From the NCBI RefSeq assembly GCF_000970025.1, contig NZ_CP009528.1, positions 4,265,168 to 4,329,167 on the forward strand: 64,000 nt of DNA, in the 5' to 3' direction. Each line of letters opens with the position of its first letter. Position 1 is the first letter of the stretch. The DNA is from Methanosarcina barkeri MS. Its GTDB lineage: Archaea > Halobacteriota > Methanosarcinia > Methanosarcinales > Methanosarcinaceae. The notes beneath the pieces were generated by a model. The model was not told the origin of the DNA. It ran no database searches and saw only the letters and a program-made list of their open reading frames with translations. Both the position numbers and the translations under genes were made by a program. Below, one piece after another: positions 51,758-64,000 of the stretch.

Positions 51758-51888
51758 ATTTAAACCTCATAATTTCCTGATTTTAAATGAAATCTGCAAC
51801 TTTTCTCAATACTAAAATACTCGATTATATACAAGACATATAGGGTTGAAATAAAAGGATTTCCAGGTAACAGTTAGTTTTTATTATC

Positions 51889-56149: not shown

Positions 56150-57217
56150 CCTTTTTGAAAATTGCAGAGTCCAGTTTCCGCACCTAACTATGATCTATTC
56201 CTGAAAACTTGGTTTCACTCTTAAAGAGGTTTTCTTTTACAGGCAGCACACAGGCCCAAAAACTTTCGATCCGAAGATTTTGTTTATTTAGTTCTCCTCT
56301 TTCGTATTCTTCCTATATTCAATCGGCCCAACAAATAATTAATGGTTGTGCCCTAAGTGAAGTTTGATATACCTGCCTTAACTTAATTAATGTTTTGATG
56401 GGTTAAAATTTTTCAATAATTAAAGGCTTTCGGGTACTATAAACTTATTCAGAGACTTTAGTGTTTCTGTCACAGGTAACTCACAGTATATTAATTATAT
56501 CCTTCTTGAGTACAAATCCTGCTAATACTATATGCAGTTTTAGCCTTACGAAGTGAACATCATTTATAGATTTATTTGTTATTTCTGCCAGCACTGCATG
56601 CCCCAAATCCAGCACTACATGCCCCAAATTAATCTTTCAGAAGAAAGCATTCGTTTAGATCAGAATAATTAAGGTTTCCCCTGAGAAGTAGATGGAACGA
56701 GGGAATACATGGATAGATATGCTGTAAAATCGTATAAATTAGGTACAATTAGAATCTAGTTAAATGAGCAAATAAGAGTTACGATATAAATATTTATCTT
56801 ATATAATTAATATGCGGCGTTGATAATTCTTTATTATATGTTTATTTTTTTATATGTTTATTTTTTTATATGTTTATTTTTTTATATGTTTATTTTTTTA
56901 TATGTTTATTTTTTTATATGTTTATTTTTTATTATACTTATTATTATACTCGTTGCTATGTATTCTTCTGCAATATTATTAACTTATTGTCCTTTAGATT
57001 GCACATCTACCAGGATAGATATACAGAAGAAAAGCTAGGAGTTAAGAAAAAAATCAGTTTGGCAAATACTTCGATCACTGTAAAAGCATATTGTGGATTC
57101 AAAGCGACAACTAGGACTAGAGGAGTAAATAAGACATAATAGGATATGGTTTAAAAATTTAGACTTATCAAGACCACGTTCAAATTTTCAGTTAGATATA
57201 GAAAACCTTTCTAAAGG
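56150..57217. other. 1.07-kb gene-poor region with a 16-bp minisatellite
   Basis: No convincing gene. Six perfect units of ATATGTTTATTTTTTT occupy 56836-56931; the short open frames over it (encoding FFICLFF-type repeats) are repeat artefacts. ACTACATGCCCCAAATCCAG-like duplication (GCACTACATGCCCCAAAT) occurs near 56592 and 56613. It contains the promoter of the large membrane protein at its left end. Confidence 0.75.
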
Positions 57218-58114
57218 CTATATTTCGGGGTAATCCCTCAGGCACACTTTTTTAACATCATTAAGAGCTTTCAGAATATGACGAATTCTGCGTTCTACAA
57301 GCTTTCCTTTCATACACCAGTAAAATGGCCTGTTGTTCCCTACTGAAGGAAATTTAGTACAGGAAATATCAATTGGGTGGAAATAAAAGATAGTATGTCC
57401 TCTTTTCAAACTCTGGATAAGCCCATTCAATACCAGAGGAGCTCCAAGAAAGCGGAGTATCGGGCCTCCTGAAGCTGGAATTTTAAGTACATTCTGATAA
57501 TATGCCCAGGGAAACTCAATAAAATTTCTATCGCCGCCTACCTCAAGCCCGTTCTTTAAAGGGTAGTAAGGAAAAGATGAGACTGTCTTAAGGAACGAAT
57601 CTGTTTTATTATAAAGAGAATTTACGGAAACTGAGGAATCATATTTGAACCCGATGTTTTCAAGTGAATCCAACATCCAACCACCTACAAAAGCATTTGG
57701 TGCCCTGTAACCTGCTACTCTCTCTCCACTAACTTTTTCAAGAATTCTTTTCGCAAGAAATGTTTTCTGTTCGAATTCCTCGTTACTCATTAATCGTTCC
57801 TTTGTCTCAGGATTGATTTTGCAGGCGTGATGCAGGCCATGACATGCAATTTCATGCCCTTTTTCCGCAATTGACTCGACAAGTCCAGGATAATGTTCTA
57901 CAATATCCGCAACTACAAAGAAAGTAGCAGTTACGTTGAACTCATCGAGAATATCCAATGCCCGTTTTGTAGGTTCAGTAAGGTAATCGTACCTACCGTC
58001 CCATTGTTCAAAAAACTCATTCACAGTCCTGTAAACAGCGTAAGGAGAACTGCAGACTGAAGGAATATGGTACCAATCTTCAAGATCCACTGTAACTGAA
58101 AAACTCCCCCTCAT
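57218..58114 (-). CDS. Polysaccharide deacetylase (NodB fold, DUF3473-like C-terminus)
   Basis: Metal-dependent enzyme removing acetyl (or similar) groups from amino sugars of an exopolysaccharide. The metal and catalytic motifs are present: VDLEDWYHIP near the start (catalytic/metal Asp) and CHGLHHACK (HxxxH) at about residues 96-104, then RAPNAFVG and a late IFYFHPID. The C-terminal PFYWCMKGKLVERRI region matches the extension in XrtA-linked deacetylases. The ATG at 58114 (MRGSFSVTVDLEDW) is preferred to 58135, with GGGGTC upstream. No signal peptide is seen, so it may act in the cytoplasm on a precursor. Likely part of a surface polysaccharide (methanochondroitin-like) pathway. Confidence 0.85.
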   Translation of the reverse strand: MRGSFSVTVDLEDWYHIPSVCSSPYAVYRTVNEFFEQWDGRYDYLTEPTKRALDILDEFNVTATFFVVADIVEHYPGLVESIAEKGHEIACHGLHHACKINPETKERLMSNEEFEQKTFLAKRILEKVSGERVAGYRAPNAFVGGWMLDSLENIGFKYDSSVSVNSLYNKTDSFLKTVSSFPYYPLKNGLEVGGDRNFIEFPWAYYQNVLKIPASGGPILRFLGAPLVLNGLIQSLKRGHTIFYFHPIDISCTKFPSVGNNRPFYWCMKGKLVERRIRHILKALNDVKKVCLRDYPEI

Positions 58115-58135
58115 AAGACCCCGCCGCGCGACCAA

Positions 58136-58984
58136 ATGCGCTTATAATGACATAACAAATTTCTGACTTATAGTGAAATTACATGCGAATAGAAGTAAAT
58201 GAGAAGCCTACTTTGTAAAAATTGTGATGCTTATAAAAGGGCAACAAGAGTATAAAAAAATTTTTGATGATTTAATTGAAATAAAAAGTTGGAAATAATC
58301 TTGAGAAGTATTTTTATATTTAACACTGAAAATTTAATTAAGAGTCCAAAAGGACAGATGGATATAAATATAGGATCAATAGACAAATTTTTATTTTGAG
58401 AACCTGGAGAGACTGATAAAATTTAATTTGATATTATTTATATCTCATAATAAATTACTCGAAAATGCAGGAATCTTTTATAGTATGTCCGAGCCACGCC
58501 CGAATCCTACAGAATAAGTTGCAGTGTGATATCTGACACTAAAGGAACTATAAAAGTTGAAACCGAGATAAGTGTTACTATTTTGCAGGAAGATTGAAGA
58601 AACAGCTAAGAATACATTGCCCGAATCTAATTTCTTTACATATAAAGAATAAGTTTACTGTATAAATTTATTAACTAGTGATCATTGCTTAAAAATTGTA
58701 GGATCAAAGTTCATTAGCGCACCTCGCTGCAAGTAATGGAGTATTCAACTGAAATAAACTTCTTGTATACTGCCGTAATTAATAGATCTTGTTTTGTATG
58801 TTTTCCAGAAGCTTTAGAGGCTTTAAGAAAAAGAAGCTGGTAAAGTTTTACATTGGTTAACCATACAGTCTACGAGATCAAAAAGAAATATTAATCTATA
58901 TGCTAAAATTTAACTGATAATATTCTCTGAAGATAGCTTTTTTCATGCCTTGAGAGTTGAGACTAAAAAAGTATAGGAATAAGA
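58136..58984. other. Intergenic region, no gene seen
   Basis: About 850 bp, AT-rich, with many stops in all frames. It should hold promoters for the divergent deacetylase and beta-helix genes; TTATAAAAGGG near 58233 and TTTTATATTT near 58312 are AT-box candidates. Nothing else was recognised. Confidence 0.45.
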
Positions 58985-59060
58985 ATGAATGGAAAAAGTC
59001 TGAGACATCGATGGCAAAAAAAGAAAAAAAAACGTATTCTACTTTACAATTTTAGTTTTT
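58985..59060 (+). other. Out-of-frame start and signal peptide of the first beta-helix gene
   Basis: The ATG at 58985 encodes MNGKSLRHRWQKKKKK, matching the MNGK start of the paralogue at 61994, but the frame is one base off from the downstream ORF and stops at 59102. A run of nine A (59024-59032) after a run of seven A (59016-59022) lies between. Losing one A would join the ATG to KNVFYFTILVFLIALGTTA, a good signal peptide that continues into the 59061 ORF. Confidence 0.75.
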
Positions 59061-60599
59061 TTGATCGCATTAGGGACAACCGCTCTTTCCACAACATCGC
59101 CTAGTATAACTGTTTATGTTTCTGCCGACGGAAGAGGGAATTTTAATTGCGACGGAAGTAATGACCAGATAGAAATAAACAAAGCTTTCACATATGTTGC
59201 AGAAAATCCTCAGTTCACAACCGTTTATCTGAAGGGCCCCAATACATACATCATCTCGGACAGTATTTTACTTGGAAACAACACTATTCTGGCAGGAGAT
59301 TCTACAGCCGTAATCAAACTTGAAGATAAAGCAGGCTGGTCAAGGAATAAACCCCTAATTACGCAGATGAACAGTTTTGGAAATCAGAATATCACTATAA
59401 AAGGATTCGAAATCAACGGGAATCATGACAAGAACAAAGAAAAAAAGAGAGGAGAGGGATATTACAATCAGATTTGTTTCTCTAATTCCAGCAATATTCA
59501 GGTTCACTCTATGTACATGCATGACGGGCATGGAGATGGGCTGAAGATAGAGAGAAGCTCTAATATTCAATTTTACGATAACCAAGTATATAAACTGGGG
59601 CATGATGATCTTTTTGCCACCGATTGCCTGAACGTTGAAGCCTGGAATAATACAATAACCTGCAGGACTAACAGCGGTTTTAGAGTATGGAACTCAAACC
59701 ATGTAAAATTCCATGATAATGTAATAGATTCCTTTTACCACTGGAGTGCAGGCGGCTCTGGAATTCAGATTGAGAAAACAACAGGCGTAATGAATGACAT
59801 AGAGGTGTATAATAATACTATTCATAACACCTATGGACCCGGGATATGGCTGTTAGGCTATGGTAATTCTTACCCCAGGGAAGAGGCAGAGAATGTACAT
59901 ATTCATCACAATATTTTCTATAGCACCGGCACTAACCCAAACATAGATTGGGTAGGTGGTATAGTAACAAGTGGATTTTACAATACCCTTGTTGAGAATA
60001 ATGTATTTGATGATACGTATCATGCTGCAATTGTCCATATGTATCCTACAGATGCTTCTACCGATCTTTCACCCAAAGATACAGGATATACCACAATTAT
60101 CCGCAATAATATTATTGTAAACACGCTGCAACGTAAGAAAGGCCCTGACGGAACGGGATACGCAGTGATTAATTCTCTGCCTGAAACGCATTCCTTTGTG
60201 CTTGAAAACAACTGCCTTTACAATAACTCCGCAGGAAACTACAATAACGCCAGCTCGACAAGCAACATCTGTGTAGACCCTCACTTTGCAAACGAGAAAA
60301 ATCACGATTATCATCTGAAATCAACAGGTGGAAGATTGAATGGAAAAACGTGGGTAAAGGATACTGTAAGTTCTCCATGTATCGATGCCGCTTATCCGGA
60401 CTCTGACTATTCAAAGGAGCCAGGAAATAGTGGAAATAGGACCAACATAGGCAGGTATGGAAATACTGAATGGGCTTCTATCTCAGGAAATAGGCTCGGG
60501 TATGTTGTATGGTGGAACCAGCTATTTTCACCAGAATGGAAAACTTTCAGACTGCTACTGAAGATGTTTTTCTTATTCTGCTTTAATGTGTTATATTAA
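59061..60599 (+). CDS. Exported parallel-beta-helix protein, disaggregatase-like (frameshifted start)
   Basis: A cell-surface right-handed parallel beta-helix protein. Many short strands with Asn ladders, for example FYDNQVYKLGHDDLF and VENNVFDDTYHAAIV, follow an N-terminal YVSADGRGNFNCDGSNDQI start shared with the paralogue at 61994. The ORF begins at TTG 59061 inside a signal peptide; the real start is probably the ATG at 58985, one base out of frame (see separate entry). It ends with the usual family closing region (GNRTNIGRYGNTEWAS) and then an unrelated hydrophobic tail, with no DNRLRE domain. It probably acts on or binds the outer polysaccharide. It is either phase-variable or disrupted. 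Confidence 0.72.
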   Translation: MIALGTTALSTTSPSITVYVSADGRGNFNCDGSNDQIEINKAFTYVAENPQFTTVYLKGPNTYIISDSILLGNNTILAGDSTAVIKLEDKAGWSRNKPLITQMNSFGNQNITIKGFEINGNHDKNKEKKRGEGYYNQICFSNSSNIQVHSMYMHDGHGDGLKIERSSNIQFYDNQVYKLGHDDLFATDCLNVEAWNNTITCRTNSGFRVWNSNHVKFHDNVIDSFYHWSAGGSGIQIEKTTGVMNDIEVYNNTIHNTYGPGIWLLGYGNSYPREEAENVHIHHNIFYSTGTNPNIDWVGGIVTSGFYNTLVENNVFDDTYHAAIVHMYPTDASTDLSPKDTGYTTIIRNNIIVNTLQRKKGPDGTGYAVINSLPETHSFVLENNCLYNNSAGNYNNASSTSNICVDPHFANEKNHDYHLKSTGGRLNGKTWVKDTVSSPCIDAAYPDSDYSKEPGNSGNRTNIGRYGNTEWASISGNRLGYVVWWNQLFSPEWKTFRLLLKMFFLFCFNVLY

Positions 60600-60760
60600 A
60601 GCTTCCTTAGCTTATTTTAGTAGCAGAATATTTAGCTAATTAGAAAAAACAGGATTTTATTTTAGTAGCAGAATATTTAGCTAATTAAAAAAACAGGACT
60701 AAACAATATATAATATTACCTGAACGTGATGTTCATTTACGGAGTGTTCACTTATTAGAA
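60600..60760. repeat. 45-bp tandem duplication
   Basis: A 43-bp segment starting TTATTTTAGTAGCAGAATAT occurs at 60612 and 60657 with one substitution and one base of length difference. The first copy begins 12 bp after the beta-helix gene stop. Confidence 0.85.
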
Positions 60761-61345
60761 TCAGGGATTATTTTTTGCAATTTGCGTAGCTGCAACTATA
60801 ATACCATCTGATCCTTTAGTGCTTATTTTTTCGGCAGGGATACCTGCAATCGAGATACCTTTTTCATAAAACGATTTATTTACGACCGAGTTTGCCCCAA
60901 TCGCTATATCGTCGGCAATTACGATATTTCCAAAAATTTTGGCACCAGGCCCGATATATACATTATTTCCAATTTGTGGGGCTGAAACTTCAGCCCGGCT
61001 AGATCCTATATTAGTACAGGCATGTATTCTGCAGTTTTCTCCAACCCTGGTATTTTTGTTTATAATGATAGTTCCTCTATGGGCGATACACAATCCTGGA
61101 CCAAAGACATTTATTGGGATACTGAACCCTAGATGGACACTCATCGTGTAGAACCTGAATAATAAGTATTTGAGATATAACTTGGAAATTAGAGATTTCT
61201 TGCAGTTGTTAAAGTACTCAGTTTTTCGTAGTAATCTCTGAAATTTCCATATATCGTCACCAATTAGTCTAGGGCTTCTACAGTGTTTACCTAAAGAAAA
61301 CTTGTCTGCTCTGACATAGAAATCGTAATCTGCTTTTGATTTAAT
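60761..61345 (-). CDS. Serine-acetyltransferase-like hexapeptide protein, start codon lost or ATT
   Basis: Left-handed beta-helix acyltransferase related to CysE/WcaB. Hexapeptide repeats cover the C-terminal half: IIINKNTRVGENCRIHACTN (interrupted), GNNVYIGPGAKIFGNIVIAD and ADDIAIGANSVVNKSF. The first in-frame ATG is at 61144 and would cut off the N-terminal helical domain. The frame stays open upstream to 61409 and encodes a good family N-terminus: KSKADYDFYVRADKFSLG, then SPRLIGDDIWKFQRLLRKTE. The codon where relatives start is ATT (61345), with AGGGGT 9 nt upstream (61355-61360). So initiation is at ATT, or a point mutation has removed the ATG. It probably acetylates a sugar or serine in surface polysaccharide synthesis. 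Confidence 0.72.
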   Translation of the reverse strand: MKSKADYDFYVRADKFSLGKHCRSPRLIGDDIWKFQRLLRKTEYFNNCKKSLISKLYLKYLLFRFYTMSVHLGFSIPINVFGPGLCIAHRGTIIINKNTRVGENCRIHACTNIGSSRAEVSAPQIGNNVYIGPGAKIFGNIVIADDIAIGANSVVNKSFYEKGISIAGIPAEKISTKGSDGIIVAATQIAKNNP

Positions 61346-61993: not shown

Positions 61994-64000
61994 ATGAATG
62001 GAAAGGAGCAAACATATGAATGGGGAGACAAAAAAAAGTTATTGTTTCTTAGTATAATTTTTGTTTGTATAATTGTAAGTATAACCCTTACTCTATCAAA
62101 GACATCCTGTACAACAGTTTATGTTGCTACCAACGGGAGTGGAGACTTTAACTGTAATGGAAGTGACGATCAGGTAGAGATAAACAAAGCTCTTGCATAT
62201 GTTGCAGAAAACCCAAAATTCACAACCGTTCATCTGAAAGGCCCCAGTACATACATCATCTCGGACAGTATTTTAATTGGAAACAACACTATTCTCGAGG
62301 GAGATACGACAGCTGTAATTAAACTTGAAGATAAAGCAGGTTGGCCTCTAGAAAAACCTATGATTACGCAAATGGACAGTGCTGGAAATCATGATATTAC
62401 TATAAGGGGATTTGAGATTGACGGAAATCACGACAAAAATAATGAAAAGAATAGGGGGAAAGGATATCACAACCTGATCAATGTCCTTAATTGCGAGAAT
62501 ATACAGGTTCACGATATGTATATGCATGACAGCCATGGCGATGGGTTTAAAGTCGTAAAATGTTCAGGTGTTAAGTTTTACAATAACCGAGTATACAAGT
62601 TAGGGCATGACGTCCTCTACGCTATCTATTCTTCGAATATAGAGGCCTGGAATAATAAAATAACGTGCAGAACGAATAGCGGTTTGAGAATTTACAATAC
62701 AAACCATGTAAAATTCTATAACAATATAATTAACTCAGAAGGAGAGGGCGGGGCAGGAATTGAAATCCAGAAAATTGGCCCGTCAACTGTGATGAATGAT
62801 ATTGAAATCTACGATAATCTGCTATATGAGACGAACGCAGCAGGTATATGGATTACAGGCTACGGGGCCGGGTATTCAAAAGATTCTGCAAAAGACATAT
62901 TCATACACCATAATAAATTTTATAAAACCGGTACTAACGAGGGTGCGGACTGGGCAGGGGGCATAGTGCTTAATGGTTTCCAAAATACCTTGATAGAGGA
63001 CAATAAATTCGATGGATGCTATGGAGCTGCTATTGCCCATAAACAGGTCAGTAATGAATTTTCGGCCCCAGGTTCAGGCTATACAACTATCGTGAGAAAT
63101 AATATAATAATTAATACACAGTCCAGTCCTGCAGCTGGGGAAGGATATGCTGTATACAACCAGCTAAAAAATACTCATTCCTTTATCCTGGAAAACAATT
63201 GTCTTTCAGGCAACGCCGGTGGGAACTATATGAGTGCAAATTCTACCTCAGACATTGAAGCTGACTCAGAACTTGCAGCAAAGTTGAACACCAACGAGAC
63301 TTTGGGTAAGGACTTTCCCTGGAGTGAAGCTATGTCTACTGGACCACAGACGCCTTATGAGATAAATGAAAGCAAAGTCCAGACCGAACAGGAAGAAAGC
63401 TTCGAGTTGAGCCTTAAAAAAGCTTTTTCAGAGTTTAGAAAGTTCCTGAAAAAATTATTATTAAATATTTCGATGCAATTTGATAAGGCAGAAAACCTCA
63501 AGGTTGCTTTACCTTTCATTATTTCTGACAATCGGCTGAGAGAAGAAGCCCCAAATACCACTTTTAGTGATAGTGAATATATCGATGTCGGAAAAAAATC
63601 CGATGGAGGCATTTACAGAGGTATTATAATCTTTGAGCTGAGTTCACTTAATCATACTGACCAGGTTGAAGAGGCCACTCTATCTTTATTCTGGTACTAC
63701 CCGGAGAACCAAATAAGATCAAAGGATACTATACTGGAAGTATACAGACCTATGAAATGGTGCAGAGAACATGTTACCTGGCAGCAGAGGGAATCTAATG
63801 ACCCCTGGAAAAACTCTGGAGGGGACTGGTATGACAGGAATGGGGTCTTCCAGGGAAACACCCCATATGCCACGATAACTATCAGTGGAGACGAGAACCC
63901 TGATAACCGCTACTACGATCTGGATGTAACAGAACTTGTGCAGGAATATATAAGTGGAAAGTATGAGAATACAGGTTTCCTTATAAAGGCTCGTGAGGAA
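61994..64000 (+). CDS. Disaggregatase-family beta-helix protein with DNRLRE domain (partial, runs off the edge)
   Basis: At least 669 residues, open to the last base of the window. An N-terminal signal/anchor (about 16-36, LLFLSIIFVCIIVSITLTL) precedes a parallel beta-helix (about 42-420) beginning VYVATNGSGDFNCNGSDDQV and including MYMHDSHGDGFKVVKCSG. A charged linker (about 440-495) follows. A second domain begins with DNRLREEAPNT and contains IIFELSSLNH, WYYPENQ and EHVTWQQRES, the DNRLRE/disaggregatase-related repeat. Disaggregatase of M. mazei breaks up cell packets by attacking methanochondroitin; this gene is a clear relative, but its own activity is inferred. It is paralogous to the gene at 59061. 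Confidence 0.88.
   Translation, partial: MNGKEQTYEWGDKKKLLFLSIIFVCIIVSITLTLSKTSCTTVYVATNGSGDFNCNGSDDQVEINKALAYVAENPKFTTVHLKGPSTYIISDSILIGNNTILEGDTTAVIKLEDKAGWPLEKPMITQMDSAGNHDITIRGFEIDGNHDKNNEKNRGKGYHNLINVLNCENIQVHDMYMHDSHGDGFKVVKCSGVKFYNNRVYKLGHDVLYAIYSSNIEAWNNKITCRTNSGLRIYNTNHVKFYNNIINSEGEGGAGIEIQKIGPSTVMNDIEIYDNLLYETNAAGIWITGYGAGYSKDSAKDIFIHHNKFYKTGTNEGADWAGGIVLNGFQNTLIEDNKFDGCYGAAIAHKQVSNEFSAPGSGYTTIVRNNIIINTQSSPAAGEGYAVYNQLKNTHSFILENNCLSGNAGGNYMSANSTSDIEADSELAAKLNTNETLGKDFPWSEAMSTGPQTPYEINESKVQTEQEESFELSLKKAFSEFRKFLKKLLLNISMQFDKAENLKVALPFIISDNRLREEAPNTTFSDSEYIDVGKKSDGGIYRGIIIFELSSLNHTDQVEEATLSLFWYYPENQIRSKDTILEVYRPMKWCREHVTWQQRESNDPWKNSGGDWYDRNGVFQGNTPYATITISGDENPDNRYYDLDVTELVQEYISGKYENTGFLIKAREE

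Follow-up and report, generated by a model that had tools for sequence, protein, structure and literature searches.

A one-base offset between the start codon and the signal peptide at a poly(A) stretch in a disaggregatase-related gene of Methanosarcina barkeri MS

A frameshift in a 5′ poly(A) tract has been described for inlA of Listeria monocytogenes (Orsi et al. 2010, PMC2831843), and poly(A) tracts lie preferentially at the 5′ ends of genes in bacteria and archaea (PMC2831843). In the genus Methanosarcina, the disaggregatase of M. mazei disperses aggregates (PMC12369344), and M. barkeri CM1 is reported to encode eleven proteins with the PF08480 domain (PMC4582637). A gene of this family was analysed here in M. 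barkeri MS, in a stretch of 64 000 nucleotides (referred to as the window; position 1 is its first letter). The predicted body of its protein has PF08480 and the beta-helix in common with the M. mazei disaggregatase and related proteins. As in inlA, a difference of one base in poly(A) near the 5′ end of a gene for an exported protein leaves a short peptide; the rest of the gene is intact, and slippage could reverse the change. For inlA, however, the frequency of variation was measured and strains were compared, whereas a single archaeal sequence was available here.

The features of the locus are collected in Table 1. The frame opened by the ATG at 58985–58987 was read as 39 codons ending with a TAG at 59100–59102. 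Its translation, MNGKSLRHRWQKKKKKR, is offset by one base from the signal peptide and the 531-codon body, as an earlier, sequence-only reading had noted. In the body frame, a TGA (59001–59003) precedes an open frame (59004–60599) that contains KKRKKNVFYFTILVFLIALGTTALS. The signal peptide is typical by eye, with a lysine-rich first part followed by a hydrophobic part. After the TGA, the first ATG, GTG or TTG of this frame is the TTG at 59061, already within the hydrophobic core. A third-frame ATG (59011) shares bases with a conserved tryptophan codon, and no ribosome-binding site can be seen for it; it was taken as a coincidence. The two poly(A) tracts are separated by a single G at 59023, and a one-base change in the tract joins or separates the start and the body. 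Upstream, an alignment showed that AGGAATAA(A/G)AATG is conserved in three relatives (G004, G030 and G014).

Table 1. Positions of the features of the locus in the window
Feature	Position	Strand	Remark
Polysaccharide deacetylase-like gene	57218..58135	-	Conserved neighbour; adjoins the orthologue in L014 and L016
AGGAA, likely ribosome-binding site preceding ATG 58985	58975..58979	+	Putative function
Ancestral start with its present frame, MNGKSLRHRWQKKKKKRILLYNFSFFDRIRDNRSFHNIA	58985..59102	+	39 aa, then stop; the homologous ATG is in frame in orthologues and shifted here
Body frame, disaggregatase-related beta-helix protein	59004..60599	+	531 codons, uninterrupted up to the natural stop; PF08480 E 1.2e-87, PF13229 E 3.4e-18
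Third-frame ATG (MAKKEKK...)	59011..59013	+	From the sequence, would join the body only via a -1 shift or one extra A
Region of the signal peptide, body frame, GKKRKKNVFYFTILVFLIALGTTALS	59013..59090	+	Core score 2.8; conserved in orthologues
A7 tract, alternative place of the extra A	59016..59022	+	A6 in G014 and G030
A9 tract	59024..59032	+	A8 in the closest relative
Paralogue, MNGK start and signal peptide both intact	61994..64000	+	Runs beyond the window; PF08480 and PF06848

The PF08480 match of the body reached 293 bits, against a Pfam gathering score of 22.6, and the C-terminal end is conserved in orthologues. A search of PDB sequences with the body gave no solved relative, the NCBIfam search gave no match for the gene and the Rfam search found nothing near it. 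What the earlier reading called a surface protein is better named a disaggregatase-related beta-helix protein (PF08480) with predicted export. The paralogue carries a PF06848 repeat that is missing from the window protein.

Orthologues with matching bodies were taken from a search of 31 Methanosarcina genomes, which gave 19 genes of other species (L030–L048). In 17 of the 19, an ATG, mostly in the form ATG AAC GGA AAA, shares its frame with the signal peptide and the body. Given these ATGs and the paralogue, which also begins with MNGK, the start is homologous, as had been proposed. Compared with the 19 orthologues, only the window has an extra A at this place. With one A less, the frame would be as in the relatives, and the link between start and export signal is broken here. 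The closest relative (G004, locus L030, 90% identity) reads CAAAAGAGG-A8-CGTA versus CAAAAAAAG-A9-CGTA in the window, which places the extra A in A9. The sequence C-A6-G-A4-G of G014 (L014) would place it in A7. The tract that holds the extra base is thus ambiguous on alignment, two relatives favouring A7. In G002, a T6 replaces the T7 of the hydrophobic core, which shifts the frame of the orthologue. This shift is probably an assembly error, because a neighbour on the same contig is likewise broken across two frames. As a separate observation, the ATG is replaced by AAG in L038 (G012:C19:653907), which has an intact body and no standard in-frame start upstream.

Constraint on the body was estimated from substitutions. 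The dN/dS ratio was 0.166 against G004 and 0.14–0.16 between relatives; on these sequences the body appears to be still under constraint. Synonymous change on the two branches was about equal (0.137 versus 0.130). Amino-acid changes numbered 31 on the window branch versus 15 on the G004 branch (binomial p 0.026), or 26 versus 13 with two outgroups (p 0.053). The neighbouring genes had no such excess (29:23, 8:9 and 10:7, window versus G004), and the excess of the window gene tested against them was not significant (Fisher p 0.19). It at most hints at a short spell of weaker constraint.

The explanation we favour, with slightly more than an even chance of being right, is a recent +1 slip, potentially reversible, at a poly(A) hot spot of lysine codons that is not a dedicated switch. 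Slippage during replication would have added one A to the poly(A) of the lysine codons near the start of this gene for a secreted disaggregatase-related protein. Ribosomes that begin at the native ATG would then stop after 39 residues and make neither the signal peptide nor the beta-helix body, and the allele would effectively be off. Tracts of this kind revert by slippage at elevated rates, which would make the allele contingently reversible. It is presumed that the allele is present in living cells, that the gene is silenced and that the change is recent; the offset, its absence in the relatives and the intact body are read directly. A real and reversible allele would provide an archaeal example of contingency at poly(A) near a 5′ end, in a family linked to the break-up of Methanosarcina aggregates. 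In the case of an error or a simple recent loss, the outcome would be a corrected annotation for one gene.

A sequencing or assembly error in an ordinary gene whose true tract keeps the frame had been offered as the trivial explanation. An arrangement such as A7-G-A9 is difficult for several sequencing methods. The remainder of the gene looks healthy (dN/dS, intact end), and the T6 shift and split neighbour in G002 are a sign that public assemblies probably contain such errors. The base rate of errors was estimated from sampled stretches, 264 kb of this genome versus 255 kb of G004. In the 264 kb, orthologue-supported genes contain 15 A/T tracts of at least 8 bases; 14 of them keep the frame and the window tract is the sole exception. 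About 105 ORFs with orthologues at an identity of at least 75% were compared and three were flagged as frame-split. The first clearly lacks one base compared with G004, outside homopolymers, at about 4377700 of G000:C2 (window coordinate about 112,580, outside the window). The second, at window position 51806, is the end of a short ORF and includes a T run that differs by one base (CTTTTCC versus a CTTTTTC-like sequence) in possibly non-coding sequence, and the third lies in a poorly conserved stretch. These ORFs showed no further substantial frameshift at a homopolymer, in a comparison that is good for internal shifts and weaker for short N-terminal ones; the window case itself appears there as an alignment from residue 11 only. 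This local base rate disfavours an error, which we regard as unlikely but as a serious contender.

The sequence-only reading had proposed a phase-variation switch. The longest A run near the start was compared with that in synonymous shuffles of the same proteins for 17 orthologues, and the mean was 6.65 observed versus 6.01 expected (one of the 17 rows, L043 with 7 versus 7.2 expected, was matched to another ATG and is to be ignored). At 6.6 versus 6.0, the tract is not longer or purer than amino-acid coding requires. It seems to be a side effect of the lysine codons, with a natural liability to slippage. The A9 is not special, since 54 A9 runs occur in the genome. True phase variation, with a tract kept for slipping and subpopulations that toggle export of the protein, would agree with the 5′ position, the intact body, the conserved upstream region, the tie of the family to aggregate dispersal (PMC12369344) and the precedent of inlA (PMC2831843). 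It is nevertheless improbable, given that synonymous shuffles match the tract length and that among the 139 family members examined at most one other, on an error-prone contig, is clearly homopolymer-shifted with no alternative start. An archaeal poly(A) switch that toggles export of a matrix-cleaving disaggregatase-like protein, by which a fraction of the cells would leave or hold multicellular aggregates, is given a slim chance. No such switch is described in the titles and abstract openings of ten of the 18 papers found on Methanosarcina and phase variation.

The family-wide count bears on the same proposal, which the lysine codons, the number of A9 runs and this count together speak against. 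An in-frame ATG ahead of the hydrophobic core was found in 129 of 139 family members. The 10 others include the window gene, several genes with GTG or TTG starts, one gene lacking a hydrophobic core, and L103, which likely has a GTG start after loss of the ATG and whose A tract differs from that of L049. Clearly shifted genes are only those of the window and of G002; L103 and L038 show other changes of the start. A heuristic scan of 50 of the 54 genomic A9 loci gave no other clear case, the orthologue test being applied to the window gene and L213 only. The latter (L213:1498-2997, G000:C2:671375) is a subtilisin-like protease gene with a GTG start, then A9 and an out-of-frame ATG. It was rejected as a second frameshift, the GTG being in the body frame and kept by orthologues in seven other genomes. 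The window gene has no such non-ATG start in its body frame.

A product could be made via a rare start codon or via slippage. The latter route, also raised in the sequence-only reading, requires that RNA polymerase slips on A9 or that the ribosome shifts, for instance by -1 on GAA AAA AAA ACG from the ATG at 59011. A stimulatory structure is not required for slippage on A runs. RNA folds around the tract were not better than those of shuffles (z-scores -0.1, 1.7 and -0.1), which counts against stimulation by an RNA structure. Nor is a shift-prone arrangement conserved, the 17 orthologues being simply in frame, and in-frame A9 and A10 runs, present in other family members and in other genes of the genome, weakly suggest that slippage is not heavy. 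A9 is a known bacterial slippage length in Thermus dnaX, which resembles the window gene in its sense-strand A9 in a coding region (PMC1088944); the out-of-frame arrangement of the window, however, is not conserved in orthologues. In Sulfolobus, fucA1 is a precedent for archaeal -1 programmed frameshifting and is likewise an archaeal gene split between two frames (PMC8211752). The shift there is -1, whereas +1 would be needed here from the native ATG, with no stimulatory fold and with orthologues in frame. The constraint on the body would fit a protein that is still made. From the sequence, nothing points to slippage on A9 or to programmed frameshifting as an expression route, and we judge continued production by slippage or frameshifting very unlikely. 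Public RNA-seq data of M. barkeri MS exist (SRP265010, PMC8196204).

Several repeats were seen around the gene. On its 5′ side, about 56 bases (58703–58758) have approximately 80% identity to many scattered sites in other Methanosarcina genomes and form a dispersed repeat. Further upstream, a tandem array of TTTTTTATATGTTTAT (56826–56942) contains about six copies with 98% matches. A 45-base unit in two near-identical copies (60612–60698) immediately follows the gene's stop codon. The next stretch, 60761–61144, encodes a 127-aa hexapeptide-repeat protein that resembles the C-terminal part of serine O-acetyltransferase, below the NCBIfam cut-offs. An ORF of similar size is found in G004 and the two may represent a shared truncated gene.
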